From Cupriavidus oxalaticus (GTDB taxonomy: Bacteria > Pseudomonadota > Gammaproteobacteria > Burkholderiales > Burkholderiaceae), in NCBI RefSeq assembly GCF_004768545.1, contig NZ_CP038639.1:1-64000 (forward strand): a stretch of DNA of 64,000 nt, in the 5' to 3' direction. The notes under the pieces were generated by a model. That model did not search any database, was not told the DNA's origin, and saw only the letters and a program-made list of their open reading frames with translations. This document shows positions 11,045 through 31,885 of this stretch, one piece after another. The position numbers and the translations under genes are program-made. Each line of letters starts with the position of its first letter. Positions within the stretch are counted from its first letter, which is position 1.

Positions 11045-11046
11045 CG

Positions 11047-11620
11047 TCAGGAGAAGAAATTGTCGTCGTTCCTTACGATGAAGGGCTTGGTGCACCGCGC
11101 ATGAATCCGGTCACGGTACATCTGCAATTGCGCCGCATCGCCTGTCGCCGCGACCAGCGCAGCCTGCGCTTCTGCAAAGTGCCCTTGCTCCCGCAGCACA
11201 TCAGCCCGCTCCAGATGCGAGCCGTTCGCAGCGGCAATCTGCTCGAGGCGGATCAGGTTTTCCTTCTCGAAACTCTTGCGAAACGCCATCGAGACAATGT
11301 CCATACCGGGGCCGACGATCGGCTTGTCCCGTCGGTACGGCGTGTTCAGATGCGCAGATCTCGCCGGAGGATGCGCTCGCGCTCGACATCGCCGTCGCGC
11401 AGTGATTCCAATGCGGCAATAAACGTGTCGGGGTCGACATCAGGTATGTCGGGCGGATACGGCCAGGATCGCCTCGACGGCTTGATTAGCTCACGCTTGG
11501 GCCAAAACCAGCGACGCTGGGGCCTGGGCGCAACTTCCGAAACCTCATCTTGCACTTCGGGCATATCCGATATCCAAATGATCCGAAGGCAACTGCAGCG
11601 GAAGTAATGGAGGTCCGGCC
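11047..11620 (-). pseudogene. Zinc-ribbon protein gene, 3' part, cut by Tn3 element
   Basis: Reading leftward from the Tn3 insertion, the frame gives PDLHYFRCSCLRIIWISD and continues to ERERILRRDLRI, then stops. One base later in another frame it resumes LNTPYRRDKPIVGPGMDIVS and a tail with LERADVLREQGHFAEAQAALV. The 5' part lies beyond the element at 15025-15180. Joined across the element the text reads ...EGW-PDLHYFRCSC..., which supports one gene with two CxxC/CxC knuckles and a helical TPR-like tail. At least two indels are needed, so it was already decaying or is poorly resolved. Function is unknown. Confidence 0.5.
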
Positions 11621-14600
11621 GGGATTCGCATAAATTCCGCCACATCTCTGGCAACCCTTTGATTTATCGAGAGAATGCACCCTTCCCTGCGCCCCGGATA
11701 ACCTCGTGACTCCGCCCCCGGCCAGAGAGAGCTCAAATTTCTATGTGCGCCATGCAGCACGCATCAGCAAAGATGAGGTTGAAGTCGGGAGCGCTTGGCC
11801 TGTCGATCTGTCATCAAAGGCGGGCAAATTCCACATCCTGGCACGCACGCTGTCGAGGGGCTCCAATACCGGACCCAAGGGAGGTAGCGGATTTGGAAAA
11901 CAGGGGGTGGACCTTGGCAGCTTCAACTGACGACAGAACAATCCGCAATGATGACGAGATCCGGTACATGGGGCACATCAATCTGGATGTCGTGCGGCAC
12001 TAAGGATGCCCTCGATCCACGATACCGCCTATCCGGCGCTGCCGGCTGAGCTTACCGCCGCCGAACTGGAAGCTGCGTTCACACCGACACCGACCGAGAT
12101 CCGCTTCGCGCGCAGCCAGTCCCGTCGCACCTCAACGACGGTCCTGATTCTCGTGCAGCTCAAACTGCTGCAGCGCCTTGGCTACTTCCCCATGCTGGCT
12201 GAGGTGCCTCCTGTCGTGATTGATCACGTGCGCGCAGCACTGCGGGCCTCTGCCCTACCTCGCGCAACAGTCAAGCGCTACGATGCCTCTGGCACCCGGT
12301 CCCGCCATCAGAAGTTGCTACGCGGGTATCTCCACATTCGACCGGTCGAAGCCAACACGCTGAAATGGCTGGAGGCGCTCGCAACCGAGGCGGCGCACAC
12401 CAAGGTCGAATTGCCCGACATTATCAACGTGCTGATCGAAGAGCTGATCCGGCTACGGTGCGAACTGCCGCCATTAGCCAGTCTTCACCGAATGGCCACC
12501 CAGGCCCGCAGCCGGTGCAACGAAGCCATCTATCGTGCCATCGCTGACGCGCTCGACGACTCGCAGATCGCTCGGATTGAGGCGTTGTTTAACGGTCAGG
12601 GCGAGCAATCCGGTTGGAACCAGCTCAAGCGCGAGCCCAAGCGCCCCGCCGCACGCGAAATCGCAAGCTTCCTCAAACACATCCAGACCCTGCGAAGCCT
12701 GGCCGACGGTCTCCCACAGGCACCAGCATTGCTTTCCGTGTCCAAACGCACGCAACTGGTGACGGAGGCCCGGGCGCTTGACATTGCTGAGCTCAAGTCG
12801 CTCAAGCGACCCAAACGATTAACTTTAGCAGTGCTCTTCATTCACGCGCAGTTGCAGAAGGCGCTCGACGATGTGGCCGAAATCTTCATCAAGGTCATGC
12901 GCAAGCTCGGGGGCCTCGCCAGGACCCGACTGCAACAATATCAACTTGCGCATGCGGACTCCTTGGAAGACCTGGTCAGCCAGTTCCGTGATGTGCTGCA
13001 AGTTCTGGAGGATGACGGCATTGCCGATATCTTCCGGCTGGATAAGGTGCGTGAGGTCCTCAGTAACGATGCAGCAGGTGCGCTTGCCCGCTGCAATGAG
13101 CATATCGCGTACGCTGGCAACTTCGATCTCCCATTCATGCTCGCGCCTTACCGCCAGCAGCGCTCCCTGCTCTTTCAGTGCCTTGAGGTCTTGCCGCTCA
13201 AATCCAGTTCGCAGGACAAGACAGTCTTGGTGGCATTGGCCTGGATACAGGGCTTTCGGACCTCGCACCGCGAACATTTGCACCTTACGGACGACGATCT
13301 ACTGAACCTTCCGCTCGACTGGCTCCCGGCCAAGTGGGAGAAGGCCATCTTTCCGGATGGCCGGAGTAGTCGTCTGCTCCATCGTAGGTACTTTGAGTTG
13401 TGCGTGTTCGATCAGGTCATGCGTGAGCTGAGCTCAGGCGATCTTTACGTGGAGGGCAGTGACCGCTTTGACGACTTCCGCCTCCATCAGGTATCCGAGG
13501 AGGTGTTCGAACGGGAGTTACCGCATTACTGTGAAATCGTTGGCCTGCCAACGGATGGCGAGAACTTCGTCAGAACACTATCGGACAGACTGAGCACGGC
13601 ACTCGACGAGGTGGATGCCAACTTCCCCGAGAACGACGGCATCGAATTCGGAGAACAGGGGCTGATTATCCACCGGCCCGGCAAGGCACCTGACCCGCCC
13701 AACATGATGCTGATCGACCAGGCTATCACCGCATCGATGCCGCAGATCAGCATCCTTGACGTGCTGACCGAAACGGAGCAATGGCTCAATCTGCATCGGC
13801 TGTTCGGTCCATTGTCGGGCTTCGATGCCAAGATCGATGACCCTCGCAAGCGAGTTATCTGCACGCTGTTCTGCTACGGCTGCAATCTGGGACCGAGCCA
13901 AACGGCTCGATCCGTCAAGGGATTGAGCCGCAAGCAAATTGCCTGGTTGAACCTGCATCACGTCACGGAAGAGCGGCTCGACAAGGCCATTGTGAAGGTC
14001 ATCAACGCATACAATCAATTCGCGCTACCGAAATACTGGGGCAGCGGCAAACGCGCGTCCGCGGATGGCACGAAGTGGACTCTGTATGAGCAGAATCTGC
14101 TGTCGGAGTACCACATACGTTATGGCGGGTACGGCGGAATTGGCTACTACCATGTCTCCGACATGTACATCGCGCTCTTCAGCAACTTCATTCCGTGCGG
14201 CGTGCATGAGGCGGTGTACATCCTGGACGGCCTCATCAGAAATGGCTCTGAGATTCAGCCGGATACCATTCACGGTGACACCCAAGCGCAGAGTGGCCCG
14301 GTGTTTGGCCTGTCCTACCTGCTGGGCATCAATCTGATGCCGCGCATGCGCAATATCAAGGATCTGGTGCTATACAAGGCGGATCGACGCCGACGATACG
14401 ACCATATCGAGCGCCTGTGCCGCCGGTCCATCGACTGGGATCTGATCCAACGACACTATCCTGACATGATGCGGGTGGCCGTCTCGATCAAGGCAGGTAA
14501 GATGACGCCGTCGACCATCCTCCGCCGGCTGGGTTCGGAGAGCACGAAGAATAAGCTTTACTTCGCGTTCCGGGAACTGGGCCGCGTTATCCGCACGCTG

Positions 14601-15020
14601 TTCCTGCTGAAGTATCTGAGCGACCCGGAGCTCCGGCGCACTATTCATGCCGCGACCAACAAGAGCGAGCAGTTCAATGACTTCGCGCAGTGGCTGATGT
14701 TTGGCGGCGACGGCGTCATTGCCGAAAATCTGCGGCACGAACAGCGCAAGGTGATCAAGTACAACCAGCTGGTCGCCAACATGGTCATCCTCCACAACGT
14801 TCAGTGGATGTCGCGCAAGCTCAAGGATTTGCAGGAGCGCGGGCATCCGGTGAATGCCGACGTCCTCAAGGCGTTGTCGCCTTACCGGCGCGAGCACATC
14901 AACCGGTTCGGCGATTACCTGCTCGACCTGCAGCGGCGCGTGCCGCCACTCGACCCATCGATCGATTTCGTATTCAAATCAGCGGCTTAGCGAAGATGTG
15001 GCGGATTTTTTTCGAATCCC
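11621..15020 (+). mobile_element. Tn3-family transposon, 3.4 kb, transposase only
   Basis: The ends are inverted repeats. The left starts GGGATTCGCATAAATTCCGC and the right (reverse strand) starts GGGATTCGAAAAAAATCCGC; both continue CACATCT. The right end goes on to TCGCTAAG, as in many Tn3-family ends. GGCC flanks both sides, and removing the element with one GGCC restores the frame of the interrupted zinc-ribbon gene, so the duplication is probably GGCC; a clean 5-bp repeat is absent. Only a transposase gene is present: no resolvase or cargo, so it resembles IS1071-like Tn3 insertion sequences. About 380 bp of non-coding sequence precedes tnpA and is conserved in the fossil end at 1018-1323. 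Confidence 0.75.
12006..14990 (+). CDS. tnpA: Tn3-family transposase
   Basis: The product has 994 residues, full length for the family. The N-terminal ~170 residues form the DNA-binding region (DUF4158 type). The C-terminal half is the DDE domain: ADGTKW with HIRYGGYGGIGYYHVSD around residues 680-720, the second acid in HGDTQAQSGPVFGL, and the late region EQRKVIKYNQLVANMVILHN before SPYRREHINRFGDY. The frame is intact from ATG 12006, close behind TAAGG, to 14990, just before the right inverted repeat. It should catalyse replicative transposition and leave cointegrates, as no resolvase is encoded. The absence of stops suggests the element may still be active. Confidence 0.95.
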   Translation: MPSIHDTAYPALPAELTAAELEAAFTPTPTEIRFARSQSRRTSTTVLILVQLKLLQRLGYFPMLAEVPPVVIDHVRAALRASALPRATVKRYDASGTRSRHQKLLRGYLHIRPVEANTLKWLEALATEAAHTKVELPDIINVLIEELIRLRCELPPLASLHRMATQARSRCNEAIYRAIADALDDSQIARIEALFNGQGEQSGWNQLKREPKRPAAREIASFLKHIQTLRSLADGLPQAPALLSVSKRTQLVTEARALDIAELKSLKRPKRLTLAVLFIHAQLQKALDDVAEIFIKVMRKLGGLARTRLQQYQLAHADSLEDLVSQFRDVLQVLEDDGIADIFRLDKVREVLSNDAAGALARCNEHIAYAGNFDLPFMLAPYRQQRSLLFQCLEVLPLKSSSQDKTVLVALAWIQGFRTSHREHLHLTDDDLLNLPLDWLPAKWEKAIFPDGRSSRLLHRRYFELCVFDQVMRELSSGDLYVEGSDRFDDFRLHQVSEEVFERELPHYCEIVGLPTDGENFVRTLSDRLSTALDEVDANFPENDGIEFGEQGLIIHRPGKAPDPPNMMLIDQAITASMPQISILDVLTETEQWLNLHRLFGPLSGFDAKIDDPRKRVICTLFCYGCNLGPSQTARSVKGLSRKQIAWLNLHHVTEERLDKAIVKVINAYNQFALPKYWGSGKRASADGTKWTLYEQNLLSEYHIRYGGYGGIGYYHVSDMYIALFSNFIPCGVHEAVYILDGLIRNGSEIQPDTIHGDTQAQSGPVFGLSYLLGINLMPRMRNIKDLVLYKADRRRRYDHIERLCRRSIDWDLIQRHYPDMMRVAVSIKAGKMTPSTILRRLGSESTKNKLYFAFRELGRVIRTLFLLKYLSDPELRRTIHAATNKSEQFNDFAQWLMFGGDGVIAENLRHEQRKVIKYNQLVANMVILHNVQWMSRKLKDLQERGHPVNADVLKALSPYRREHINRFGDYLLDLQRRVPPLDPSIDFVFKSAA

Positions 15021-16566: not shown

Positions 16567-17811
16567 TTAAGATTTTCCGTGTGGTTGATCATCAAAAACT
16601 CCATTACCCTCAGCTTTAGGGAGTAGACCGACATAGTTTGCCCGTGCCCGGATATGAGGACCTTGGTGATATTGCTCACTAGCATGTGCAATCCAACCTA
16701 CCATCCGACCCAATCCCACAATTGCCAACTCGTTGCCGTGCATCTCGAACTTCCTACCCAAGAAGGCCGCCAGGAGAACAAAGGCTGGTGGTTGGTCTGT
16801 CAAGTCGCGGACCAGATCAATCACTGCCGTAAGTCGCCGGAAGTCCGCGTCATGTGCGAAGACATCCATCATGTGCTTCATCAAGTGAGCTGCGCGAGGG
16901 TCCTCGACACCATGAACGTTTCGATCGAATCCTGCGATGGCCTCGCCCTCTCGAAAGCGCGCGAGTACCGGCTCGCAGGGGTCCTTCGCCCCGGCAATCT
17001 CGCTGAGAAGTCGCACGGCCTGCTCTACGCGCCCAGCACTAATCCGTCGCCCCCTCGACGCTAACAGCCCGCACACCGCTGCTGCGTAAGGTGTAATTCC
17101 GGTGTTTGCCGTCGTGCGCACCGCGTACGTCATAGGGGTAAATTCGTGGTCCACGGAAAGCACGAGCATTCGTCGCACCATATCTTCGTACTTTGGTGCA
17201 ATGCGCAGCCCTTTGGTCAGGTGCTGATGTAGTGGCCCGGCGACAGGTTCGCTTTGGGTGAGCACTGCGGCGTATGACCGTAGCGTGTCCGCGCCAGTGC
17301 GAGCGTAACCCGTTTTGCTTAGGTCGTACGCATGCGGATGCATCTGCTCAAGGATCGGGAACAACGCAAGTGCCTGAGCCATGGGTCCTAAGTGCTGTAA
17401 ATCGGCGATCACTCTCCGCGCGACCTCAGGAAAGGGGAGTGCTTTTCTGTCAAAAGCGCCGGGTGTCTCCCACATCCATTCGGCAACCTCCTCAAGGGTT
17501 GCATGATCTGCCAAATCGGTTGCCGGACGACCTCGATAGTAGAGACCTTTCTCCGTTAGCAGCGTGATTGAGGTGCTAATTGCCGGCCAATGGGGCGTTG
17601 AGGACTGTGCGGCGGTGCCGCGCTCCGCGAGAAGCCGCTCAATGTCGGCAGCCCAATATCGTCGGCTGCGAGAACCGTCCACCTTCGACGACCGAATTCC
17701 CTTCCTACCGACGTAGGCATAAAGCGTCGCCACGTTGATGTTGAGCAGCGACGCTGCCTCCTCCGCACTGAGGTATAGGGCGTCGTTAGTTACGGCATGT
17801 TCCGCTTTCAT
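16567..17811 (-). CDS. HTH-citrate synthase-like protein 1, active-site residues missing
   Basis: The product has 414 residues in two parts. Residues ~12-60 are an excisionase/MerR-like helix-turn-helix (LSAEEAASLLNINVATLYAY, then SRSRRYWAADIERLL). Residues ~80-400 follow the citrate-synthase fold (LLTEKGLYYRGRPATDLAD, LSVDHEFTPMTYAVRTTAN, DPRAA). The DHE histidine and the DPR aspartate are kept. The loop that carries the catalytic histidine (GPxHGGANE in true enzymes) reads ASRGRRISAGRVEQAV, and GFGH reads GFDR. Enzyme activity is therefore doubtful. A DNA-binding sensor of a CoA ester or carboxylate is a reasonable inference. It is divergent from a porin gene, with an 18-bp palindrome between them. 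Confidence 0.75.
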   Translation of the reverse strand: MKAEHAVTNDALYLSAEEAASLLNINVATLYAYVGRKGIRSSKVDGSRSRRYWAADIERLLAERGTAAQSSTPHWPAISTSITLLTEKGLYYRGRPATDLADHATLEEVAEWMWETPGAFDRKALPFPEVARRVIADLQHLGPMAQALALFPILEQMHPHAYDLSKTGYARTGADTLRSYAAVLTQSEPVAGPLHQHLTKGLRIAPKYEDMVRRMLVLSVDHEFTPMTYAVRTTANTGITPYAAAVCGLLASRGRRISAGRVEQAVRLLSEIAGAKDPCEPVLARFREGEAIAGFDRNVHGVEDPRAAHLMKHMMDVFAHDADFRRLTAVIDLVRDLTDQPPAFVLLAAFLGRKFEMHGNELAIVGLGRMVGWIAHASEQYHQGPHIRARANYVGLLPKAEGNGVFDDQPHGKS

Positions 17812-17883
17812 ATTGACTCGACTCGTACAGATTTACATAGCTCAGCCTCGAGTATACAGTCAACACCATCGCCATGTTAGTAC

Positions 17884-17901
17884 ATATATGGATCCATATA
17901 T
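17884..17901. promoter_or_regulatory. 18-bp perfect palindrome in divergent promoter
   Basis: ATATATGGATCCATATAT lies between the HTH-citrate synthase-like gene 1 and the porin gene. It is a candidate operator for the encoded HTH protein. AT-rich surroundings and further partial repeats (TTGACT at 17814, AGTCAA at 17868) fit a regulatory region. Confidence 0.45.
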
Positions 17902-18042
17902 CTATATAGCCGACGTTGGGCCGTCGGCGCCAAAGTGGTCGATAGGAGGCCTCACTCCCGCGCAGCGCATACGGGAGCAGCCACATGTACATCACACTGC
18001 ATCCGGACGCTGCGATGCAAAAAACTACAGAGGAGACGAGTT

Positions 18043-19152
18043 ATGAAGAAGGGACTTGCCATCGCGGCAGGATGCATGGCATTCGCGAACGAAACTGCGC
18101 TAGCGCAGGACGGCGTAACGTTGTATGGCGTTATGGACACGAACATTGAGTACGTCAGCAACGTCTCGCAACTTGACTCGACTCAGAGAGGCTTCCCTGG
18201 TCCAGGAAAGAGTCGATTTGGACTGACTTCTGGCGGACTTTCTGGGTCTCGTTGGGGAATTCGCGGGACTGAGGACCTTGGCAAAGGACTCAAAGCTATC
18301 TTTGCACTAGAGAGCGGCTTTGAGGCAGACACAGGGAAGATGGCTCAGTCCGGCCGTCTGTTTGGGCGCCAAGCTTACGTTGGGCTCCATCAGAAAGGCT
18401 TGGGTCAATTGTCATTTGGACGGCAGTACAGCGCCATGTTCGACACATTCTCCAATTTCTCCCCCACCGGGTACACGAATCAATATGAGCCGATTGCGTC
18501 CATGGTCGGACTGGATCTTCGGTCAGACAACACAGTGAAATACAAGGGAGAGTTCGGTCCCGTCACCGCTATCGCAAACTGGTCCTTCGGAAATGGCGTT
18601 GCAAGCAGTGGGGAGGTGGCCGGTCAATTCCGGCGAGACAGCGGCTATGGGTTCGGCGCCTCGTATCTCGGTGGGAAAGTTGGTCTCGCTATGGCGTTTG
18701 AACAATTCAATCCGACCCTGGCTGCCGGGGCCGCACCAGCGAGATTCCAGAAGGCAGGAGCGGCGGCTACTTACAACTTCGAAAATATTAAATTGACGGG
18801 CGGGTACCGTTGGGGCTTGAACAAATCAGGGAGCGATGCCACGCTGGCGCGAGATAACCTCTATTGGGTCGGTGCAAACTATTCTCTAGCCGCGCTTAGG
18901 CTAACGCTCGCGTACTACTACGATGATCTGAAGAATCTGAACGGCGTTGACGTAAAAAACCCATGGCAGGTTTCATTTATCGCCGACTATAACCTGTCGA
19001 AGCGAACCGACGTCTACTTGTCTTTGGCCTACGTAAAGAACTCGGGCCTAAATTTCGACAATACAGCTGTCTTTTACTCAGGCGGAAATCCTCTCGGGGC
19101 AGACAAGCAAAGCATGCTAGGAGCTGCCGTCGGCATCCGACACAGATTCTAA
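18043..19152 (+). CDS. Gram-negative porin, trimeric type, 1
   Basis: The product has 369 residues. The ATG at 18043 follows GAGGAG and starts a signal peptide ending ALAQ. The mature protein begins DGVTLYGVMDTNIEY, the standard opening of Burkholderia OmpC-like porins, with the conserved SRWGIRGTEDLGKGLKAIF and GRQAYVGL segments. It ends with the outer-membrane signature GAAVGIRHRF, terminal Phe included. It is closely related to the porin at 40020-41132. The position next to catabolic regulators suggests uptake of the carboxylate or aromatic substrate handled here. Confidence 0.9.
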   Translation: MKKGLAIAAGCMAFANETALAQDGVTLYGVMDTNIEYVSNVSQLDSTQRGFPGPGKSRFGLTSGGLSGSRWGIRGTEDLGKGLKAIFALESGFEADTGKMAQSGRLFGRQAYVGLHQKGLGQLSFGRQYSAMFDTFSNFSPTGYTNQYEPIASMVGLDLRSDNTVKYKGEFGPVTAIANWSFGNGVASSGEVAGQFRRDSGYGFGASYLGGKVGLAMAFEQFNPTLAAGAAPARFQKAGAAATYNFENIKLTGGYRWGLNKSGSDATLARDNLYWVGANYSLAALRLTLAYYYDDLKNLNGVDVKNPWQVSFIADYNLSKRTDVYLSLAYVKNSGLNFDNTAVFYSGGNPLGADKQSMLGAAVGIRHRF

Positions 19153-19371
19153 GGGCATAGGACAGTCACCCAAGTTCGTTGATGTCCCTCAGTAGAAGCC
19201 GGTTCCACCAAGCAGACGCCGGAACCAGGAATGGCGCGCAGCCACTTCCAGGGAGTAATGGGGGACATCTCCAGCCTAACGAAAGACGACGCTACCATTT
19301 CAAGTTAATCCGAAGGACTGTGACTACACAACTCTCGGTTTTGGAAGCCGAATCGGAAAGGGATTTGCACA

Positions 19372-20661
19372 GTGAGCAGCAGTCAAAACGGTCTAAGCAT
19401 CAAAAATTCGTCAACCAAAGGTGACGCGTTTAGTGCATGCAGCCGGACTAAATTTTCTACTTCGGCAGCACTATTAACATCGTTGGCTGTCTTTTCTCAG
19501 GAAGTCGTTTGGAACTTCTATGAGGCCCAGGTTCCACCGGCCCTACGGCATTACACCAACAGTGCCGCCCTGATCGGCTTACTTATGGGTATCGACAATC
19601 TACTCGGCCTGTTTATTCAACCATGGATGGCGCACAGGTCCGATAACACCAATAATCGCTTTGGTCGAAGAGTTCCGTATCTATTGATTGGTGTTCCGAT
19701 AGCGGCCACTTTCTATATCCTTATTCCCTGGGCGGAAAGTCTACCAGCCCTCATTGCATCGATGCTCTGCTTTGCCTTAGTAGCAAACTCATTTAAATCA
19801 ATCACCGAAGCATTGGTGGCAGATTTTCAGTCAGCGGAAAACCGAGGAAAAGCGAACGCGATGGCGAAATTAGCCGCAGCGCTGACGATATCAGTTGGTT
19901 CTGGTATTAGTTATTTCGTCATAGATAAGAGCACCAAGGTTGCATTCGCCATACCTGCTTTTCTACTTGTTATTGGCATGGCGATAGCATGTTGGGGCTT
20001 GGACGAACGAAAGCTCCATTCCGTAACCTCCGAAAAGGGCCGCGCACAACAAAGCCAAAGCTTTCGAAATCTAATTATGGATATTCTGCGCTCGAGCAAT
20101 CGGAGCAGAGCCTCTATGCTTCTTGCCGTCTTTGCGACAGCGGGGGCTTGGTCCGCAATGCGGTCGCAGCTAAGTCCTTACGCAATTGAGATCCTTGGTT
20201 TGACGCGCGGCCAAGCTGGCTCGCTTTCAATGCCGGCTGGAATAGCATTTATCCTTGCGGTGTTTCCACTTGCAATACTATCTGATCGGTCGAGCCGCCT
20301 CAGTATATGCAAAATCGGCGGGCTTGTGTTTTCTGTCGGCTGCTTTGTGGCATTCATATCAACTAGCGTTCAAGCTACCATCATTGCATTGGTGATTGCC
20401 TCGGTGGGGTATGCCGCATTTGCAATAAATGGCGTCGTCATTATGTGGAACTTGGCCCCCAACAGTAAATGTACTGGAGCATACACGGGACTTTACACAA
20501 TGGCCTTCGCTTGTGGTGCGACCATTGTTCCGGCACTGATCGGGCTACTGGTCGACGCGACCGGCTGGCGTTATTTGATGCTATATGCGGGCATTGCTGG
20601 ATTAGTTGCTTTTTTGCTCTTTTCGCGCATCCGAAATGAATGCTCAATTAATAGACCATAA
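19372..20661 (+). CDS. MFS transporter
   Basis: The product has 429 residues with about twelve hydrophobic segments. The loop after helix 2 reads MAHRSDNTNNRFGRRVPYLL, the D-x-x-x-RxGRR signature of major facilitator proteins, and a second-half copy is LSDRSSRLSICKIGG. The start is GTG 19372, in frame with the first helix (TSLAVFSQEVVWNFYE); no better ATG precedes it. GC content is lower than in the catabolic operons. The substrate is unknown. It lies between a porin and a TetR regulator in the same direction, so it may import the same compound. Confidence 0.75.
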   Translation: MSSSQNGLSIKNSSTKGDAFSACSRTKFSTSAALLTSLAVFSQEVVWNFYEAQVPPALRHYTNSAALIGLLMGIDNLLGLFIQPWMAHRSDNTNNRFGRRVPYLLIGVPIAATFYILIPWAESLPALIASMLCFALVANSFKSITEALVADFQSAENRGKANAMAKLAAALTISVGSGISYFVIDKSTKVAFAIPAFLLVIGMAIACWGLDERKLHSVTSEKGRAQQSQSFRNLIMDILRSSNRSRASMLLAVFATAGAWSAMRSQLSPYAIEILGLTRGQAGSLSMPAGIAFILAVFPLAILSDRSSRLSICKIGGLVFSVGCFVAFISTSVQATIIALVIASVGYAAFAINGVVIMWNLAPNSKCTGAYTGLYTMAFACGATIVPALIGLLVDATGWRYLMLYAGIAGLVAFLLFSRIRNECSINRP

Positions 20662-20749
20662 GCTCCATTTACCATGATCTTCAAGTGTGATCACTATATA
20701 AAGGCTTGTGCGCGCTATTGTTGAATGATGGCTATGATAAAGAGGCCGC

Positions 20750-21589
20750 ATGGGTATTAATCGTCGAAATGATTCCCGTCTTACGAGAAATCGCATTCTC
20801 GAATTCTCACTGCGCCAGCTCAATGAACTCGGGGCGCCCAGCGTAACCACGACTTCAATAGCGGAAGGAATGGGAATCAGCCCTGGGCTACTGTATTATC
20901 ACTTTCGCAATAAGTACGACATTATAAACTCACTGTTTGAAAGCTTCGAGCAAGAGATGGATCGCCTTTTGACGTGTCCGCAAGGCCATGCCGTCACATT
21001 AAAATGGAGCTGGAGCCACATACAGTATTTGTCAGAGTTTATGTGGAGTTATCGATTCTTATATTTGGACATCAACGACCTTTTATTACATAGCCGAACG
21101 CTGGAAGTCAAATTTAAGCGCATTGTCGAAAGGAAAAAGGACTTTGCGCTAGAAATTTGTGGGCAGCTTTTAGAATTCGGCGAAATGGAGGCCACGCCGG
21201 AGCAACTGGATGCCATGTGTACTAGCATCGTAGTTGTGATCACCTACTGGCTGTCTTTCCAGTTCCTGCAGCACGCTCGCCATTACAACGACGCAGAGCG
21301 AATTCGCGCTCACCTGCACGGGAGTAGCTACCATATCATTTCGATTCTCGCGCCTCATCTACGGGGCGGTGCGCGTGAAGCCTATAACCAATTGATCTGC
21401 GAGTACGAGGTCAGCACCCAAGGAAGGCCATTTGAAACAGGTGATGGCCATCGGCCCCTCTCGATTGCTGACGCGGCCATCGCACTGGACGATGGAGGAG
21501 ACTTGGCGTCAATCCACGCGGCGATAAGGCACGGTCGAACACGTGCGGTCGAACACGTCATGGTGGATCAGAAAGACGTACAAAAGTGA
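20750..21589 (+). CDS. TetR-family regulator 1
   Basis: The product has 279 residues. The N-terminal HTH is clear (TRNRILEFSLRQLNELGAPS, then TTTSIAEGMGISPGLLYYHF). The next ~150 residues match the regulator at 45413-46141 closely (for example SEFMWSYRFLYLDIN and VVITYWLSFQFLQHAR), so the two are paralogues. This one has a C-terminal extension of about 60 residues that the other lacks. A GTGATCAC palindrome at 20687-20694, within a short promoter region, may be its operator. The ligand is unknown; it probably controls the upstream transporter or its own gene. Confidence 0.85.
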   Translation: MGINRRNDSRLTRNRILEFSLRQLNELGAPSVTTTSIAEGMGISPGLLYYHFRNKYDIINSLFESFEQEMDRLLTCPQGHAVTLKWSWSHIQYLSEFMWSYRFLYLDINDLLLHSRTLEVKFKRIVERKKDFALEICGQLLEFGEMEATPEQLDAMCTSIVVVITYWLSFQFLQHARHYNDAERIRAHLHGSSYHIISILAPHLRGGAREAYNQLICEYEVSTQGRPFETGDGHRPLSIADAAIALDDGGDLASIHAAIRHGRTRAVEHVMVDQKDVQK

Positions 21590-21842
21590 ACCACTGAACG
21601 CGACGACTTCGTGACGACCGTGGCTCGAAGGGAAAAGAGGGCGTGGGCTGTCGCTCAGAATATTGGTGACGAAGCCCTGCCCTCGCAGCTGCCAGCCAAT
21701 TGTGAAAGGGCGACCCGATGGTCTTCGCCCCAACCACCGGCAGCCGACACTACGCGGTACGCCACGACATATCATCTCACCAGAGTGGGCGTCCTTATTT
21801 GCCGCAAAGTCATCCTGGACGCACCCATTTCACCAAAGAGGT

Positions 21843-22871
21843 CTAAACCGTTGCGACGGGCGTCACCGGTGATCCAGCTGCGCCTGGCAGGCGCAACGGG
21901 GGCGCCGTCAACAGAAACCGACTGCGGTTGTGTTCGCGCAACCATCGGTTTAACGGCGACAGAAGCCATTGTTCACCCAGCGGCACGCCCAGTTTAAAAA
22001 GACAGTGTTCATGCAAAGTGCTGGGGGCGCCTGGGACCGGAGGAAGGATCTCAACGGCACGATTGTCAGAGATAAGTGCAACCACCCCAGAGTCCGTGAT
22101 CCACTGCAACAAACGGGCGTCCGCGCCATCGAGTCCAGCGCAACTGTTGTGCATGCGCCAAGAGTCGGGCTGTTTATTCATTTCGAGCAGAATCTCGTCG
22201 AAGCCGGTCCACAGACACAGCATGTCGCCCGATTCCACACAAACGCCGTCCTCGTCCAGGATGCGCATGAGGGCGTCGTAGCCTACACGTTGGTGTTCCC
22301 GACCAAAATGCCGAAACAGGTCCACCATAACTCCGCGACCTTGGACGCACGTAGCGGCCATCGTGTCGATTCCAAGCGGCCCTGCAGTCACACCCTCGAA
22401 TTGCTCCCAGTCCTGTGCGTCAAGACGCGGCGGTGGCGTTACGACGTCCACACCGCCGCGCCATCCGTTGTAGTAAACGATTTCTGCGACACCGTCGCCG
22501 TCCGCATCGAATTCGGTACCCACATGCGCAAGGCTATCCCATTGTGTCGAATACTGGGTCGATAAAAGGACGGCGTCGTCGCAGACCACCGAGCGAATCC
22601 TGCCATCAGGCGATCGCCTAACGTGGTTATGAAAACACTGTCCGCCATGCACTGCGCCGAATAGCCGCGGCGGATGACGTCTCGGATTACCCACCGTTCC
22701 GCCCGGGAAGTCGAGAGGCAGGCTCAGGCAGAACGCGATGCCCTCCCGTGCTTCCGCTAATCCCTGTTTAACCTTGTCAGGAGTGAGAAGGTTCAGTCGC
22801 CCGATCTTGTCGCTGTCGCCGAACTCGCCCCAGTTGGATCCTTCTGGTCGGTGCACCCATCGTTTTCCCAA
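21843..22871 (-). CDS. Cyclase-family metal hydrolase (PF04199 type)
   Basis: A product of 342 residues resembling the large cyclase/kynurenine-formamidase-like family. Family marks are QWDSLAHVG (metal ligand region), VSG-like GVMVDLFRHFG, an acid-rich GDMLCLWTGFDEI, and a C-terminal HEHCLFKLGVPLGEQWLL. I start at TTG 22869-22871, six bases after AAGGAG; an in-frame TTG seven codons earlier (22892) is possible. The enzyme probably opens a lactone or amide, or dehydrates a hydroxy acid. An inverted repeat ATGTCGAC-N7-GTCGACAT lies directly upstream (22945-22967), matching one before the AtuA operon, so both are probably controlled by the HTH-citrate synthase-like protein 2 encoded between them. 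Confidence 0.75.
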   Translation of the reverse strand: MGKRWVHRPEGSNWGEFGDSDKIGRLNLLTPDKVKQGLAEAREGIAFCLSLPLDFPGGTVGNPRRHPPRLFGAVHGGQCFHNHVRRSPDGRIRSVVCDDAVLLSTQYSTQWDSLAHVGTEFDADGDGVAEIVYYNGWRGGVDVVTPPPRLDAQDWEQFEGVTAGPLGIDTMAATCVQGRGVMVDLFRHFGREHQRVGYDALMRILDEDGVCVESGDMLCLWTGFDEILLEMNKQPDSWRMHNSCAGLDGADARLLQWITDSGVVALISDNRAVEILPPVPGAPSTLHEHCLFKLGVPLGEQWLLSPLNRWLREHNRSRFLLTAPPLRLPGAAGSPVTPVATV

Positions 22872-22944
22872 TTTTCGCTCCTTGGTCGACAAGCCAAAGC
22901 TGCTCGCCGTCGCAAAGAATAGAGACCTCCAGGTCTATCCGTCA

Positions 22945-22967
22945 ATGTCGACTGTTGTGGTCGACAT
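22945..22967. promoter_or_regulatory. Operator candidate, ATGTCGAC-N7-GTCGACAT
   Basis: This is a perfect 8-bp inverted repeat with a 7-base spacer, located between the end of the HTH-citrate synthase-like gene 2 and the start of the cyclase gene. The same motif, with one mismatch and identical spacing, is at 24207-24229. A spacing of about two helical turns fits a dimeric HTH protein. Confidence 0.65.
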
Positions 22968-22973
22968 ATTTCA

Positions 22974-24191
22974 TCAAGGCGGGAGGATGCCGTTGTAGTT
23001 CACCTTCCAGCGCACCAATGGCATCTCGTTTTGCTGCTCCCATGCGTGTGCGATCCAACCAGCGATTCTTGCCAGGCGTACCAAGTTGGCATCCGGCTCT
23101 GCGCCGATGCGACGGTTCACAAACGCAGCCAGGAACGCGAAGTCCGGTTGCTGGCCGGTCAGTTCACTGGCCAAATCAATGGCCCGCTCAAATCGCGCGA
23201 AATGGCGATCGGCGGCAAGTAGCGTGCGCAGGGAGGACAAGAGTGCTGCGGATCGCGGGTCAGGCACGGCGAAAGGGGAAAATCCAAAACCTGGTACATC
23301 CTCGCTCCCTCGCACTCGGGTCTTCACGGGCTCGGTCGGATCCGAAGCCTTCTCGATCTCTGCCATGAAGCGGGCAAACGAACTGACGCGAACCGCCGGC
23401 AGACGTTTTCCCATGACCGCTGAGAGGCCCGCTATCACACAGCGGTACGGTGTCGCGCCGGTGCTCGCAGCAGCGCGCGCGACATAGGTCGCGGGGTGAA
23501 GGGCCTGATCGGCAGAAAGCACGAGTACGCGCCGCACTGCATCCTCGAGTTTCGGCCCACACTTGGTGGTCTGGCCGATATAGCGGTGCAGAGGCCCTTT
23601 CGCCGGTGTGGCCTGGCGCAACATCCAAGCGGCGAACCAGCGCATCACGTCCGCACCCGAGCGCAAAAAGCCTTGCTTACTGAGGTCGTGCGCGCGCGGG
23701 TTGCTTGCCTCGATGGCGGGCAGCAGCATCATGGCACGGTCCAGCGCACTGTAGCTCGCACAGGCTTTGAGCAGCACATCTAGGTTCGCCGGGGTTGTGA
23801 TCGGCATCAAGCCATCGAAAGGGTCGAAGTCGCCGGCATCCCACAAGAGGCGAGCGACTTCCTCCAAGGTCGCATGTTCAGCCAAATGAATCGCGCTGGT
23901 ACCACGATAGAAGGAGCCTTTCTCCGTCATCAATGTGATCGCCGAGGTCCCTGTGAGCCCCGGTGCGGCTTCTCGTGACGAGGCCGGTGCTATGCCCGTT
24001 TTGATCTGTTCGATGTCCGAGCGGAGATATCGGCTGACCCGGCTGCCGCGCGTCTTGTGCGTGCGGATGTTCTTGCGGCTGACGTACGTGTATAGCGTGG
24101 ACACGCTCACGTTCAACATTCCTGCTGCTTCTTGCGCTGTCACGTAGATGCCGTCGCTGGAACCCAGCGGTGCGGTCGTATCGATGGCCAC
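22974..24191 (-). CDS. HTH-citrate synthase-like protein 2, active-site residues missing
   Basis: The start is GTG 24189-24191, seven bases after AGGAG, giving 405 residues. The N-terminal HTH (VTAQEAAGMLNVSVSTLYTY, SRVSRYLRSDIEQI) is close to that of the protein at 16567-17811. The citrate-synthase fold follows (LMTEKGSFYRGTSAIHLAEH, TYVARAAASTGATPY, VPDPRSA). Three enzyme motifs are changed: DHE reads DQA, the HGGANE loop reads KRLPAVRVSSF, and GFGH reads GFGF; DPR is kept. It should therefore not be a working citrate synthase. Identical inverted repeats on both sides of the gene, before the AtuA operon and before the cyclase, point to a repressor or activator that senses a related acyl-CoA or acid. 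Confidence 0.8.
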   Translation of the reverse strand: MAIDTTAPLGSSDGIYVTAQEAAGMLNVSVSTLYTYVSRKNIRTHKTRGSRVSRYLRSDIEQIKTGIAPASSREAAPGLTGTSAITLMTEKGSFYRGTSAIHLAEHATLEEVARLLWDAGDFDPFDGLMPITTPANLDVLLKACASYSALDRAMMLLPAIEASNPRAHDLSKQGFLRSGADVMRWFAAWMLRQATPAKGPLHRYIGQTTKCGPKLEDAVRRVLVLSADQALHPATYVARAAASTGATPYRCVIAGLSAVMGKRLPAVRVSSFARFMAEIEKASDPTEPVKTRVRGSEDVPGFGFSPFAVPDPRSAALLSSLRTLLAADRHFARFERAIDLASELTGQQPDFAFLAAFVNRRIGAEPDANLVRLARIAGWIAHAWEQQNEMPLVRWKVNYNGILPP

Positions 24192-24206: not shown

Positions 24207-24229
24207 ATGTCGACGATTATAGTCGAGAT
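24207..24229. promoter_or_regulatory. Operator candidate, second ATGTCGAC-N7 repeat
   Basis: ATGTCGAC, spacer GATTATA, GTCGAGAT: the same inverted repeat as at 22945-22967 with one mismatch. It lies in the divergent promoter between the HTH-citrate synthase-like gene 2 and the AtuA operon, 15 bases upstream of the former's GTG, so it could serve autoregulation and operon control. Confidence 0.65.
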
Positions 24230-24295
24230 TGACCGATAAAATCGGGCCGTCTACATTTCGGATCAAGGAGCAATTCTCAGACCGATGGAGACGAC

Positions 24296-25693: not shown

Positions 25694-25985
25694 TCTGGCG
25701 GCCATGGTCCGCAGCAAGAATGCCGGTCCCTTTGTGCTGACGTTCGACATCCTGTTTAGCGACGAAGAGAATTACCTGCGCGTCAAGCGCTCAGGTGCTT
25801 TAAACGTTGAGATGTTTGCCAAGCTCTATCACACCGCACCATCGAAGGTGCGCTTCTTCGAATGCGACAAGGCGCTGGCCCTCAAGTTCAGCATTCCACA
25901 TCCCACGACGCAGGGCGCGCTCGGCAGCGCGGATCTGCACGGAGGCCAGCAGTTCATTCCGTTGCTCGCTATTCAGATTCCTTGA
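25680..25985 (+). CDS. DUF4387-type AtuA partner protein 1
   Basis: The product has 101 residues: MQLSDLAAMVRSKNAGPFVL at the front, SDEENYLRVK in the middle and the tail GSADLHGGQQFIPLL. It shares the pattern RSKNAGPF...FD...HxGQQ with the protein at 33300-33608, and both follow an AtuA gene with overlapping ends. The start ATG 25680 follows AAGGAG inside the AtuA gene. The constant coupling suggests a small subunit of an AtuA complex; the biochemical role is unknown. Confidence 0.75.
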   Translation: MQLSDLAAMVRSKNAGPFVLTFDILFSDEENYLRVKRSGALNVEMFAKLYHTAPSKVRFFECDKALALKFSIPHPTTQGALGSADLHGGQQFIPLLAIQIP

Positions 25986-26023
25986 AGAAATGCGGCTATG
26001 TACCGCTTCGATGGAGACAACTC

Positions 26024-27022
26024 ATGCGCATTTTTTTCCAAGCGGCTCGGGCCATCGGCCTGACTGTCTGCCTGGCGGCCGGAACTTCCGCCGCGATCTC
26101 TCAGACGCGGAATGACGACGCCGCCAATTGGCCCCGTCGCGTCGTCAAGCTGGTTGTTCCGACTGCGCCAGGCCAAGCCTCGGACGTGCTCGCGCGTCTG
26201 CTGGCGGACTATCTGTCGAAGGCTTTCGGTCAGCCCTTCATTGTGGACAACCGCAACGGGGGCGGTGGTTTCATCGGCCTTTCTATCGCGGCCAAGTCGC
26301 CGCCGGACGGTTATACGCTCGTTATCGCCTCCAGCGGACCGCTTACCGTGTCACCGGCGGTGCTTTCCAAGGTGCCGATGGACACAGTTAAGGATCTCGA
26401 GCCCATCGCCAATATTGCTCTGACTCCTCAAGTCATTCTGGTGGCGAGCAAGGGGCCATACAAATCGCTATCGGACCTGATCGGCGCTGCAAAGAAAAAG
26501 GATCTCGCCTTCGCGATTCCGCCGCTCGGATCGACGAGTCATTTGGCCTATGCGGCATTCGCCAGATCGACCAACACGAATTTCACCCTCGTGCCATTCA
26601 AGGGGAATGTCGATAGCGCTACGCAAGTCATTGGCGGCGATGTGGCAGCCATGTACGACACCGTGCCTGGCGCATTGAACTTGCTCAAGGCAGGGAAGTT
26701 GCGTCCACTGGCTGTCGCAGCCTCGCAGCGCTCCCCGTTCCTTCCAGACACGCCTACGCTGGGTGAACTGGGCATTCAGAACTCCGAGGCGGTGGGCTGG
26801 ATTGGCCTGGCTGCCCCGGTGAAGACACCACCTGAAATCCTGGAGAAGCTTGCTTCGCAGGTGCAGCGCTTTCTGGCGGATCCTGCGGTCCGCGCGAGCA
26901 TGAAGGCCCAAGGGTTCGCGCCCGTGGACAGCGCCACACGCGAATCGTTTAAGACCACCATTCGTTCCGACCTTGCGCACTGGTCAAAGGTGGCGAAGGA
27001 GGCGAACATCCATGTCGACTGA
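26024..27022 (+). CDS. Bug-family periplasmic binding protein 1
   Basis: The product has 332 residues. The ATG at 26024 follows GGAG and opens a signal peptide (IGLTVCLAAGTSAAIS). Family marks are VVKLVVPTAPGQASDVLARL, FIVDNRNGGGGFIG, KSPPDGYTLVIAS and the C-terminal DPAVRASMKAQGF. Bug proteins bind carboxylates for tripartite tricarboxylate transporters or act as sensors. No membrane subunits are encoded in the window. It is in the AtuA operon and overlaps the next Bug gene by 11 bases. Confidence 0.85.
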   Translation: MRIFFQAARAIGLTVCLAAGTSAAISQTRNDDAANWPRRVVKLVVPTAPGQASDVLARLLADYLSKAFGQPFIVDNRNGGGGFIGLSIAAKSPPDGYTLVIASSGPLTVSPAVLSKVPMDTVKDLEPIANIALTPQVILVASKGPYKSLSDLIGAAKKKDLAFAIPPLGSTSHLAYAAFARSTNTNFTLVPFKGNVDSATQVIGGDVAAMYDTVPGALNLLKAGKLRPLAVAASQRSPFLPDTPTLGELGIQNSEAVGWIGLAAPVKTPPEILEKLASQVQRFLADPAVRASMKAQGFAPVDSATRESFKTTIRSDLAHWSKVAKEANIHVD

Positions 27023-28049
27023 CTACATGAATCGAGAAAGGGACGCTGCTGTCGGTCGATGGATGATATCGCGCCGCAGTATTATTACCCAAAGCGCGCT
27101 GCTGGGGCTTAGCTTGATGCTTCCGGCTTACAGCAAGGCTGCGGGTGAGCCCTTTGCATCGAAGCCTTTTCAGGTCATCGTGCCGTATCCACCCGGCGGT
27201 TCAAACGATAGCTTAGCACGCCTGATCGCTCTTCAATTGGCGCGCAAGTTTCAGCAACCTGTACTCGTTGACAACAGGCCCGGCGCCGGAGGAGGTATTG
27301 GAATCAGGGTACTCGCCAAATCTGTGGCCGACGGCCATACGCTTGGTCTAGTTTCGTCATCGTTCGCCACGTCGGCTGCTGTAAGCGCCAAGCTGCCATT
27401 CGATCCGATCAAAGATTTCGAGCCCGTCGCAAGGATTACATCGAGTGCACTACTGGTTCTCGTGTCACCGCATCTGGGCGTGCGAGATCTGCAGGGTTTC
27501 ATCGCCCTCGCACGGCAGCGGCCAGGAATGCTCAGCTACGGGTCGTCTGGTGTTGGTAGTCTCAATCACTTCGCAGCGGAGTTGGTCATGGACGCTGCAG
27601 GTGTTCGGCTCGTGCACGTACCGTACCGCGGCATGGCTCCGGCAATGGCGGACCTGGCCGGTGGCCACCTGGACTTGGTGATAACCAGTGAGTCCTCCGC
27701 GCGCGCTTTTCTCAACAAGCGCAACGTTGTTGCGATTGCAACGACGTCGGCACAGCGCCTTCCCCACCTGAGCACTGTGCCCACTTGTCGAGAATCCGGT
27801 CTTTCAGAAATTGTGATCGACGCGTGGGCGGGCTTTCTTGCGCCAGCCGGGACGCCGGCGGACAAGCTGGCGCTCTTGAACGGTGCGATCAACGAAGCCA
27901 TGACCAGCCCGGAACTATCCAAGGCTTTAAAGCTTGAGGGGGCGTCAGCCTTTGAGCCGCTGACTGCAACTGAATTTAAGTCATTGGTACAAAGTGACAT
28001 AGCGCGCTGGCGCAAAATCGCAAGGGCAAAAAGAATTGAGGCTGACTGA
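27012..28049 (+). CDS. Bug-family periplasmic binding protein 2
   Basis: The product has 345 residues. The ATG at 27012 is nine bases after AAGGAGG and lies inside the end of the preceding gene. The export signal contains twin arginines (ISRRSIITQSALLGLSL), so Tat export is possible. The binding-protein core includes FQVIVPYPPGGSNDSLARL, VLVDNRPGAGGGIGI, LSYGSSGVGSLNHF and VHVPYRGMAPAM. Having two different Bug proteins in tandem suggests two related ligands or separate transport and sensing roles. Confidence 0.85.
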   Translation: MSTDYMNRERDAAVGRWMISRRSIITQSALLGLSLMLPAYSKAAGEPFASKPFQVIVPYPPGGSNDSLARLIALQLARKFQQPVLVDNRPGAGGGIGIRVLAKSVADGHTLGLVSSSFATSAAVSAKLPFDPIKDFEPVARITSSALLVLVSPHLGVRDLQGFIALARQRPGMLSYGSSGVGSLNHFAAELVMDAAGVRLVHVPYRGMAPAMADLAGGHLDLVITSESSARAFLNKRNVVAIATTSAQRLPHLSTVPTCRESGLSEIVIDAWAGFLAPAGTPADKLALLNGAINEAMTSPELSKALKLEGASAFEPLTATEFKSLVQSDIARWRKIARAKRIEAD

Positions 28050-28457: not shown

Positions 28458-28954
28458 ATTATGTCCGCCGCGTTGCTCGCGAGGTCCAAGAGCGCCTGAG
28501 GCCCCGCGAGCCAGCAGCCGCTCGCTTCCGGAACGCCCGCTACACACGCGTCAAACTGTTGATGCATGATGGCTTTGGCGTGTTGTGCGCCGCGCGCCGC
28601 CTTAACCAGGGGCGCTTTGCCTAGCCTGCCGGTACCACCGGCGCACAACCGACGCAGGCGCAGTTCGACGCCCCGGTGCTCGGCCTGCCCTGGCAGGGGT
28701 GATCGTGCTTTCGCTGCATGTATGGAGCCGACGCCTTTTGCAAGCTTCTTGTTCGTGATGTTGAAACGGTCTGCATGCATGTATCCGGCTTGCCCGGTGG
28801 GCGCTTGCCGACACGCGCGCCGGTCGGCGCCATGGAGCTGGTCGGGTAGCAGTAGCGCATTGCCACCATGGTGTGGCACCGAACAACTTGACAGAACGTT
28901 TCGCAGTTCGACGACGGGAGAAGTAGCTAGCCCACGCCGGATCGAATGGGGTGG
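28458..28954. other. Region without supported gene
   Basis: Several overlapping GC-rich frames exist on both strands but none carries a recognisable motif or ribosome binding site. This stretch follows the 3' side of the group II maturase fragment and may hold intron debris; no domain V hairpin was recognised. Confidence 0.4.
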
Positions 28955-29512
28955 TCAGTCCTCGGATTTTGACGGTCTCGTAATCGGGATCGTCATCGCG
29001 CGGAAGAGCCGAAATCCGCTGGTACCGCTGTCAGCCGAACCCTTCGTTGCAAAATCCCAGGACCGGTGTCCGTCAGCCTGGAAGTAGCTCCTCCTGACCC
29101 ACCGTGCTCCTTTATTGGGATGTCGACGCCTAGCCCACTTCCAGAGCAGATGCCAGATGTGCGAGTCTATAAATGAGAAGCTTGCTTTCGCCACGACGTG
29201 ACGGTGATACATGGCCCAGTCCCGGATGACCGGGTTCAGTTTCTGTATCAACGCCTCCTGCGTTACGCTCGCGTTGCCTTTGATGATCTCCCTGACCTTG
29301 GCGAGCAGCGATTTGACGCTTTTCGTCGCTGGTTTGGCCAGCAGCTTGCCAGCATATTTGCGCACGTTCTGACCAAGGAAATCGAAACCCTCCGCAATGT
29401 TCGTGATCCGAGTTTTCTCCTCCGAGAGTTCCAGCCTTCGGGCGGCCATAAACTGTCTGACCGCAGGAAGTACTTTGGATTCGAGCACCTCTTTCGATAT
29501 GCCGGTGTGCAA
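28955..29512 (-). pseudogene. Group II intron maturase, C-terminal fragment
   Basis: The 185 residues match the end of group II intron reverse transcriptase/maturase proteins. The last part of the reverse transcriptase (LSEEKTRITNIAEGFDFLGQ) precedes the maturase domain X (KSLLAKVREIIKGNASVTQ, LNPVIRDWAMYHRHVVAK, HLLWKWARRRHPNKGARWV). The catalytic YADD region and everything before it are missing, and the last ~20 residues look unrelated. It is a dead remnant of an intron. Confidence 0.8.
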
Positions 29513-29577: not shown

Positions 29578-30570
29578 TCAACCCAATTGGAGACCCGCCT
29601 CCTTCACCAGTTCCGAGTATCTCCGCTGCTCGCTGCTCAGGAAGCGCACGGCTTCCTCTCGCGAACTGACGCGAATGATCGAACCGAGCTTGGACATGGT
29701 CTCTTTGACAGCCGGCGTACCGTAGGCCTGAACGATGGCACTGTGAATTCGATCGGCTTGGGCCGGCGGCAGGCCCTTGGGCGCGATCATCGCGCTCCAA
29801 CCTTCGATCTGGAAATTTGGTATGCCCTGTTCCGCAAACGTTGGAAGGTCGGGCGCGGTGGGCGCCCGATTTAGACTGGCCACGCCGATGCCGCGCAGCG
29901 TTCCGTCGGCTATGTATTGCTGGACGGAAGGTAGTGCACTGACGCACCAGTCGATTTGCCCCCCAATCAGGTCGGAGATCATGGGCCCAACGCCCTTGTA
30001 AGGGATGTGGTTGGCCTTTGCCCCGACTTCCTTCAGGAATAGTGCACCGCCCAGGTGCAACTGCGTTCCATTACCGGACGACCCAAAATTCAACTTTCCG
30101 GGGCGTTCTTTCATCAAGGCTACAAGCTCCCGCGCGTTTTTCGCCGGGAGCTTGGGATTTCCCACGATGACGAGTGGCGCCGCGCCGATGATCGCGATGG
30201 GTGTGACATCGCGGACCGGATCGAATGGCACGGCCTTGTACAGGTTGGGAAAGATTACGAGGTTGACGGAAACCAGGGCGAGCGTTGTGCCATCGGGAGC
30301 GGCTTTTATCAGGGCCAACGTGCCGAGCAAACCACCCGCTCCTGGCACGTTCTCGATGACGACGGGAGAACCGAGCGCCCTTGCCAGCTCCGGCTGAACT
30401 GCACGGGCGCCAATGTCGACGCTCGAGGCGGGGGCCACCGGCAATATCAGCCGAACCGGAGTGGGGCCGGCCAATACCCGGTGATTCGCGATATCCAGCG
30501 CCAGCACCGGAGCTATAGCAATGGTGCGCATGGCGTTGCGGCGAGCGGCATTGTGGCTTTCTCTCATCAT
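29578..30570 (-). CDS. Bug-family periplasmic binding protein 3
   Basis: The product has 330 residues. The ATG at 30568-30570 follows GGAGAC, and the N-terminus is a signal sequence of unusual make-up (MRTIAIAPVLALDIANHRVL). The core has VRLILPVAPASSVDIGARAV, VVIENVPGAGGLLG, LNFGSSGNGTQLH and NHIPYKGVGPMI, all Bug-family marks. It is transcribed away from the LysR gene at 30858, the usual arrangement for a regulator and its target. The target ligand may be that of the AtuA-Hyu operon downstream of LysR. Confidence 0.85.
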   Translation of the reverse strand: MMRESHNAARRNAMRTIAIAPVLALDIANHRVLAGPTPVRLILPVAPASSVDIGARAVQPELARALGSPVVIENVPGAGGLLGTLALIKAAPDGTTLALVSVNLVIFPNLYKAVPFDPVRDVTPIAIIGAAPLVIVGNPKLPAKNARELVALMKERPGKLNFGSSGNGTQLHLGGALFLKEVGAKANHIPYKGVGPMISDLIGGQIDWCVSALPSVQQYIADGTLRGIGVASLNRAPTAPDLPTFAEQGIPNFQIEGWSAMIAPKGLPPAQADRIHSAIVQAYGTPAVKETMSKLGSIIRVSSREEAVRFLSSEQRRYSELVKEAGLQLG

Positions 30571-31784: not shown

Positions 31785-31885
31785 TCTGCCATCGCCGTTG
31801 ACGACGGCAACCATCCAAAAAGATCGCTTCAGGACTGTAGAGGGTGTCATCACAATGATGTGAGTTTCTTCACATCGACGTAGAG

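Follow-up and report, generated by a model that had tools for sequence, protein, structure and literature searches.

The 64,000-nucleotide stretch of Cupriavidus oxalaticus DNA analysed here (the window; positions 1 to 64,000 of contig NZ_CP038639.1) encodes two proteins, regulators 1 and 2, in which a helix-turn-helix (HTH) head is joined to a citrate synthase domain that lacks the catalytic triad. They belong to a conserved family for which a candidate operator, a 26-bp motif, has been mapped, and are most likely enzyme-derived one-component regulators. In the reading that we favour with good confidence, this family of transcription regulators descends from an HTH-citrate synthase fusion that lost its catalytic function, and its members sense a citrate-like acid, probably repress their own genes and activate operons for uptake and catabolism.

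Both open reading frames (ORFs) were found at the coordinates reported in an earlier note on this DNA, which had given no strand; both lie on the minus strand. Regulator 1 (P0001; 16567..17811; 414 amino acids, start codon ATG) carries an HTH_17 head at residues 13-64, and regulator 2 (P0002; 22974..24191; 405 amino acids, start codon GTG) carries one at residues 16-62; the two proteins are 43% identical to each other. That note had described an excisionase/MerR-like HTH on a citrate synthase fold. The fusion itself is borne out by Pfam, with HTH_17 scoring 30.5 and 35.1 bits and Citrate_synt 106.5 and 108.7 bits in regulators 1 and 2, respectively, against a cut-off of 27 for each model. The MerR label is not, since MerR_1 remained below its cut-off in both proteins (18.8 and 16.8 versus 21.6 bits), and a general MerR family assignment was rejected because the MerR scores fall under the curated cut-offs. 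Excisionase (Xis) function, a name borne by some relatives annotated 'xis' or 'protein Xis', was likewise rejected, the setting being one of conserved catabolic operons. Structure models predict an entire citrate synthase fold in both proteins; their TIGR01800 scores (80.3 and 82.6 bits) are far under the curated enzyme cut-off of 421.3. The HTH head alone, compared with PDB sequences, gave a single match, to a CAP REPEAT chain (1.2e-05).

To describe the active site we use the E. coli numbering, taking the catalytic triad to be His264 (of HGGANE), His305 (of GFGH) and Asp362 (of PNxD), and R314 (of DPR), R387 and R407' to be the arginines that bind oxaloacetate and hold the substrate carboxylates. 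In an alignment to the PrpC-like enzymes of the same genome (L002 and L003), all three triad positions are replaced in both regulators while the three arginines are retained, in regulator 2 as R313, R375 and R394. The His229 position is kept in regulator 1 and is Gln in regulator 2, and the Asp362 region reads P-A-F in regulator 1 and P-D-F, a form common among the relatives without a triad, in regulator 2. The losses of HGGANE and GFGH and the change from DHE to DQA in regulator 2 are as the earlier note described. It erred in treating the Asp of DPR as the catalytic one: the Arg of DPR is a substrate-carboxylate arginine and the catalytic Asp is Asp362 of PNxD. Since all three triad residues are gone in both proteins, the loss of catalysis is fuller than had been claimed.

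The same loss runs through the family. Searches returned 84 relatives of regulator 2 and 493 of regulator 1, 120 of the latter being listed, and of 554 loci confirmed in a genome scan 80 were retained. Two reference enzymes and five incomplete sequences were dropped from the 287 aligned rows, leaving 280 for the counts; these rows are not independent. By the joint state of H264 and D362 they split into 197 pseudo-type and 83 intact-type rows, with none mixed, so that H264 and D362 are kept in 0/197 pseudo-type rows. In these rows R314 and R387 are always retained (197/197 each) and R407' nearly so (191/197), while a His is found at the H305 column in 19 rows and F383 persists in 16. The H229 position holds His in 144 of the 197 and Gln in 47. 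Mean column entropy is lower in the HTH (1.25 bits) than in the sensor domain (1.78 bits), meaning that the HTH is the better conserved part. Because the same loss recurs across 197 pseudo-type rows, some of them close relatives of each other, it is not a matter of chance, and the residue pattern is what a sensor would show that still grips a carboxylate and no longer needs catalysis. Of the two ligand classes proposed earlier, a coenzyme A (CoA) ester or a carboxylate, retention of the three carboxylate-binding arginines favours the latter; a CoA ester is disfavoured more weakly, the GFG-to-DPR loop being variable in sequence but of enzyme length in 157/197 rows.

Fusions that keep their catalytic residues are also extant, and trees place the pseudo-type proteins among them. 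Plain enzymes served as the outgroup. The pseudo-type rows are monophyletic in a first, quick tree built from 71 rows (Shimodaira-Hasegawa-like approximate likelihood ratio test, SH-aLRT, 100), and in a second one, calculated with more care from 63 rows after removal of the active-site columns, their clade has bootstrap/SH-aLRT support of 100/100. It is nested among the intact HTH-citrate synthase fusions, on a branch supported at 88/95, with the sister group unsettled. This position indicates that the fusion came first and that catalysis was, most simply, lost once.

The candidate operator, RTMAATCTNKAYN7RTCNAYA, was seen by eye in the upstream regions of pseudo-type genes. The repeated upstream element, RTMAATCTNKAYNNNNNNNRTCNAYA, consists of an inverted pair (GTCAA/TTGAC-like) with a further GTCAA 19 bp on. 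For the comparison of loci, 103 locus rows were reduced by four duplicates to 32 unique pseudo-type and 67 unique intact-type loci; one locus, L151, was moved from the automatic class pseudo to intact, as the alignment shows His264 and Asp362 kept and Asn at 305. With up to two mismatches the motif is found at the regulator's own gene start in 29/32 pseudo-type and 60/67 intact-type loci, always in the sense orientation, and the reversed-pattern control in none of either class. Regulators 1 and 2 thus have both the HTH_17 plus Citrate_synt architecture and the motif at their own start, the pattern having been derived in part from these two copies.

Because the pattern was first spotted in the same promoters, independent checks were needed. 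A matrix trained only on 28 distinct intact-type sites, and applied to 200-bp segments (46 to 318 per locus), ranked the regulator promoter top in 18 of 37 pseudo-type rows, a set that also contains L151, the misplaced-start locus L132 and three further duplicates; the number expected by chance is well below one. In the 7.97-Mb genome of our strain the motif has four matches with at most one mismatch (control 0). The exact copies are two only, directly ahead of regulators 1 and 2, and of the one-mismatch copies one precedes the cyclase gene (22941-22966) and one lies elsewhere. The cyclase copy took no part in deriving the pattern, and equivalent copies occur in loci L009, L010 and L132. L010 belongs to Paraburkholderia xenovorans LB400, whose counterpart of regulator 2 is 81% identical and is preceded by an exact copy of the motif. 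At up to three mismatches the window holds six matches versus 1.53 expected, a number reached in 0 of 100 shuffles. An exact copy is present in 15 of 17 genomes picked for a pseudo-type or intact fusion, and these 17 together contain 32 copies with at most one mismatch (control 2); 22 genomes from the two genera concerned, chosen by absence of a pseudo-type match and without regard to intact fusions, have 12 copies (control 2), none of them exact. Two other readings of the motif were rejected: an RNA element near the start codon, as the copies ahead of target genes run the other way, which fits DNA, and a coding sequence, as an in-frame TAA is read in several Bradyrhizobium copies.

Within the window, the candidate operator of regulator 1 (17811..17836, minus strand, exact) abuts the regulator's start codon, and its end overlaps a -35-like TTTACA (17832-17860, plus strand) facing the porin gene. 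That of regulator 2 (24208..24233, minus strand, exact) lies upstream of the gene and overlaps at its end a -35-like TTGACC (24229-24257, plus strand) facing the AtuA gene. The third (22941..22966, plus strand, one mismatch) lies in the gap that separates regulator 2 from the cyclase gene and overlaps at its end a -35-like TTGACG (22945-22916, minus strand) that faces the latter. All three motifs share this arrangement, and the proposal that an enzyme fold has been reused as the sensor of a regulator steering porin, AtuA and cyclase genes is strongly supported in silico by the motif in front of those genes and of their equivalents in relatives.

Further copies, outside the regulator promoters and within 9 kb, accompany the pseudo-type genes: 39 were counted near these (527 kb), with the window copies seen from both window genes, versus 2 near intact-type genes (1,057 kb), 3 more lying inside the annotated frame of intact-type genes; the control gave 0. 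When each site was counted once (L132, L136, L139, L140 and L151 left out), 27 of 36 further copies were at the 5' end of a recognised cluster ORF, namely DUF1302 (10), CitMHS (9), AtuA (4), cyclase (2), MipA (1), AbrB (1) and aconitase-large (1), one copy being counted twice. They point away from the target gene in 24 of 28 pairings, as do the regulator-promoter copies with respect to the divergent gene in 24 of 24. For the spacing analysis L132, L136, L139 and L140 were left out and L151 was treated as intact. Among 64 pseudo-type sites, not independent where loci are related, a -10-like hexamer follows the TTGAC/TTTAC at the motif end at 17 bp in 22 and at 18 bp in 6, the other 26 spacings together accounting for 19; at intact-type loci it has that spacing in 2/66 sites. 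A motif of constant orientation, centred near -43, fits class II activation, and one over the regulator's own start fits autorepression; in both cases we infer the sign of control.

The genes around the two types differ as well. Within 9 kb of the 32 unique pseudo-type loci we counted AtuA and DUF4387 genes at 29 each, CitMHS and PrpD-family genes at 22 each, D-2-hydroxyacid dehydrogenase genes at 20, and large and small subunits of the aconitase/LeuC type at 12 and 11; at the 67 intact-type loci the corresponding numbers are 0, 0, 0, 3, 0, 4 and 0. In these counts a single AtuA cluster stands for both window genes, related Pseudomonas account for many of the loci, and some loci are cut by contig ends. 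At L012 the CitMHS protein scores 486.9 bits, above the citrate:proton symporter cut-off of 259.7. Where Gln occupies the H229 position (regulator 2, L009 and L010), the locus lies beside AtuA and cyclase genes and lacks CitMHS, as do the His-type loci of regulator 1 and L133; ligand and regulon may have shifted together in the Gln229 loci, of which there are three. At 49 of 66 intact-type loci (within L028-L088; for instance L029:8826-9980 and 10001-11224) the fusion gene faces an unfused citrate synthase gene head-to-head, four examples being confirmed by Pfam, with the 26-bp motif between the two where examined; such fusions are possibly active enzymes that regulate this partner gene.

In the window, a porin gene (Porin_4; 18043..19152, plus strand, start set by a simple script within the ORF 17935-19152) is divergent from regulator 1 and is followed by a major facilitator superfamily (MFS) transporter gene (19372..20661, plus strand), a possible co-target. 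Downstream of regulator 2 lies the putative cyclase gene (PF04199; 21843..22871, minus strand) with its own motif in front. Divergent from regulator 2 are genes for an AtuA-family protein (PF07287; 24296..25693), a DUF4387 protein (PF14330; 25680..25985), which overlaps the AtuA gene end, and two Bug/TctC-type solute-binding proteins (ORFs 25862..27022, its true start probably later, and 26973..28049), all on the plus strand. In the whole genome PF07287 has seven matches at six genes and PF14330 occurs at two places, both in the window; neither was present in 14 control genomes. The second place is a further AtuA/DUF4387 cluster (29578-39813) with hydantoinase A/B-type proteins, a D-2-hydroxyacid dehydrogenase, MFS and Bug proteins and a LysR gene, in which no 26-bp motif was found at up to three mismatches. 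A TetR gene and a LysR gene are nearby in the window. A Tn3-family transposase (12006-14990) sits just upstream of the regulator 1 region, and the cluster may therefore have moved as part of mobile DNA. The segment at ~28860-29510 resembles group II intron maturase regions of Burkholderiaceae and Mesorhizobium plasmids and is probably a remnant. A DNA similarity search against plasmids gave short pieces only, and all plasmid protein matches to regulator 1, pseudo and intact types taken together, were below 60% identity. Elsewhere in the genome (L006 and L007, contigs C1 and C2) two more short citrate-synthase-fold ORFs, judged by eye, are possibly of the citryl-CoA-lyase type, and the L006 ORF adjoins one that looks by eye like a CoA-transferase.

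Taking as a pseudo-type match any hit of query A2 at E <= 1e-105, we found such proteins in 3 of the 398 genomes sampled from the phylum, in 2 of 398 of the family (G000 and G582, with two copies each), in 1 of 369 of the class sample, which was our own genome, and in 12 of 298 from the genus of G054.

As a mechanism we propose that a dimer on the citrate synthase scaffold would bind the 26-bp motif through its HTH heads, and that a citrate-like di- or tricarboxylic acid would fill the old oxaloacetate/citrate pocket, held by the three arginines. Closing of the citrate synthase domains on the ligand would then shift the geometry of the HTH heads on the motif. The bound protein would cover its own promoter, giving autorepression, and, centred near -43 of the target promoter, would recruit RNA polymerase in a class II-like manner. 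Regulator 1 would thus control itself and the divergent porin(-MFS) genes, and regulator 2 itself, the AtuA-DUF4387-Bug genes and the cyclase gene. For the family as a whole we lean, less firmly, towards the citrate synthase fold being the sensor throughout, with extant genomes showing an active fusion that shares the motif with a head-to-head citrate synthase gene and then a dead descendant that has spread the motif to the -35 boxes of AtuA/DUF4387, CitMHS, porin and DUF1302 operons and reads a citrate-like, perhaps alkyl- or hydroxy-substituted, polycarboxylate.

Several points weigh against this account, which draws on sequence, structure models and the distribution of the motif. The proposed ligand is guesswork based on the pocket residues and the neighbouring genes, and many pseudo-type relatives have an Asp two positions ahead of the canonical one that could in principle act. 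Three of the 32 pseudo-type promoters are without the motif, and the intact-trained matrix misses 19 of 37, mostly of the GTAAATCTGTAC subtype. Three of the 32 loci are without AtuA, and the neighbour models were seeded from pseudo-type loci. The script left 9 of the 36 further copies unassigned, three of which (in L012, L021 and L023) precede a lipase/hydrolase gene when read by eye, and 4 of 28 pairings point toward the gene. Of the 64 pseudo-type sites, 36 lack a -10-like hexamer at 17-18 bp. In the window region, promoter-like matches as a class occur about as often as in shuffled sequence (5 versus 4.5).

The most serious rival, which we regard as unlikely, keeps the family and reverses the sign: the proteins would repress the transport and catabolic operons until the ligand releases them. 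The overlap of the motif with the target -35 box, where a bound protein could block RNA polymerase, speaks for it. However, the greater part of the 26 bp is upstream of -35 and the orientation away from the target is fixed (in the 24/28 and 24/24 pairings above); class II activators usually sit upstream of -35 in this way. Improbable in our view is a trigger enzyme, in which other residues would still catalyse some reaction on a citrate-like substrate while the protein also regulates DNA. The displaced Asp, the His229 of 144/197 relatives and the existence of intact HTH-fusions would suit it, but the three catalytic positions change together, and both F383 and a His at the H305 column are rare among the pseudo-type rows.

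Alternatively, another regulator could bind the 26-bp motif, with the HTH-citrate synthase gene merely one of its targets. Binding by the regulators themselves is an inference, and the TetR and LysR genes of the window are at hand as candidates. Yet the gene common to motif loci across several proteobacterial orders is the HTH-citrate synthase gene itself, and exact copies number 0 in the 22 genomes without a pseudo-type match versus at least one in 15 of the 17 fusion genomes, which makes such a regulator quite improbable. We give very little credence to the idea that the proteins are regulatory subunits of an active citrate synthase and not promoter regulators. Citrate synthase forms a dimer whose subunits share active sites, and the plain partner gene at 49/66 intact-type loci would fit such pairing; however, no citrate synthase partner lies beside the other 36 pseudo rows (the sole case, L151, was re-filed as intact), the HTH of the pseudo-type rows is highly conserved, and the motif follows the pseudo-type genes. 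Activation by a catalytically dead, carboxylate-sensing citrate synthase fold remains our preferred reading.

If so, the finding has several consequences. The supposed intermediate, the intact fusion, and the end state are both extant with the same motif, which makes the order 'fuse, lose catalysis, rewire' testable. The AtuA/DUF4387 pair would be tied to a likely inducer class; no function was found in the DUF1446/DUF4387 literature, and in passages of one paper DUF1446 appears only as an unknown gene downstream of a methylaspartate ammonia-lyase gene (PMC4682846). The public label 'citrate synthase' is misleading for the pseudo-type proteins and is corrected here, and the fold suggests a possible new scaffold for organic-acid biosensors.

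The earlier note knew of no described regulator family of this kind, and we too found no HTH-citrate synthase or citrate-synthase-derived regulator in the open-access (PMC) full-text literature; 'citrate synthase family protein' occurs as a name in a table row of one article (PMC12542777). Under this and similar names the databases list the intact-site fusions, which have the same architecture and the same motif at their own start but differ from regulators 1 and 2 in keeping the triad, in usually facing a plain citrate synthase gene head-to-head, in having hardly any further motif copies and in lacking AtuA/DUF4387. With citrate synthase and 2-methylcitrate synthase proper (PF00285, TIGR01800) the regulators share the complete fold and the three substrate-carboxylate arginines, and they differ in the absent triad and the extra HTH head. 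In MocR/GabR an HTH is fused to an aminotransferase fold that serves as effector domain; these proteins differ from ours in their GntR-type winged HTH and the fold of a pyridoxal phosphate (PLP) enzyme. Enzyme-derived regulators are already known in principle, BzdR being another, and a citrate-synthase-derived one appears to be new. The nearest precedent found is BzdR: a shikimate-kinase-like sensor sits under an HTH-XRE head, the ligand is benzoyl-CoA, and chimeras showed that the catalytic loss matters (PMC3602430). As in our proposal, a metabolic enzyme domain without catalysis is the effector under an N-terminal HTH and a catabolic operon is controlled (PMC3602430). The BzdR-type architecture is not that of regulators 1 and 2, for which Pfam gives HTH_17 and Citrate_synt; by description, sequences not being compared, the principle is the same, while the fold (shikimate kinase), the head (XRE) and the ligand class (benzoyl-CoA) of the experimentally studied BzdR differ from those we propose here (PMC3602430).

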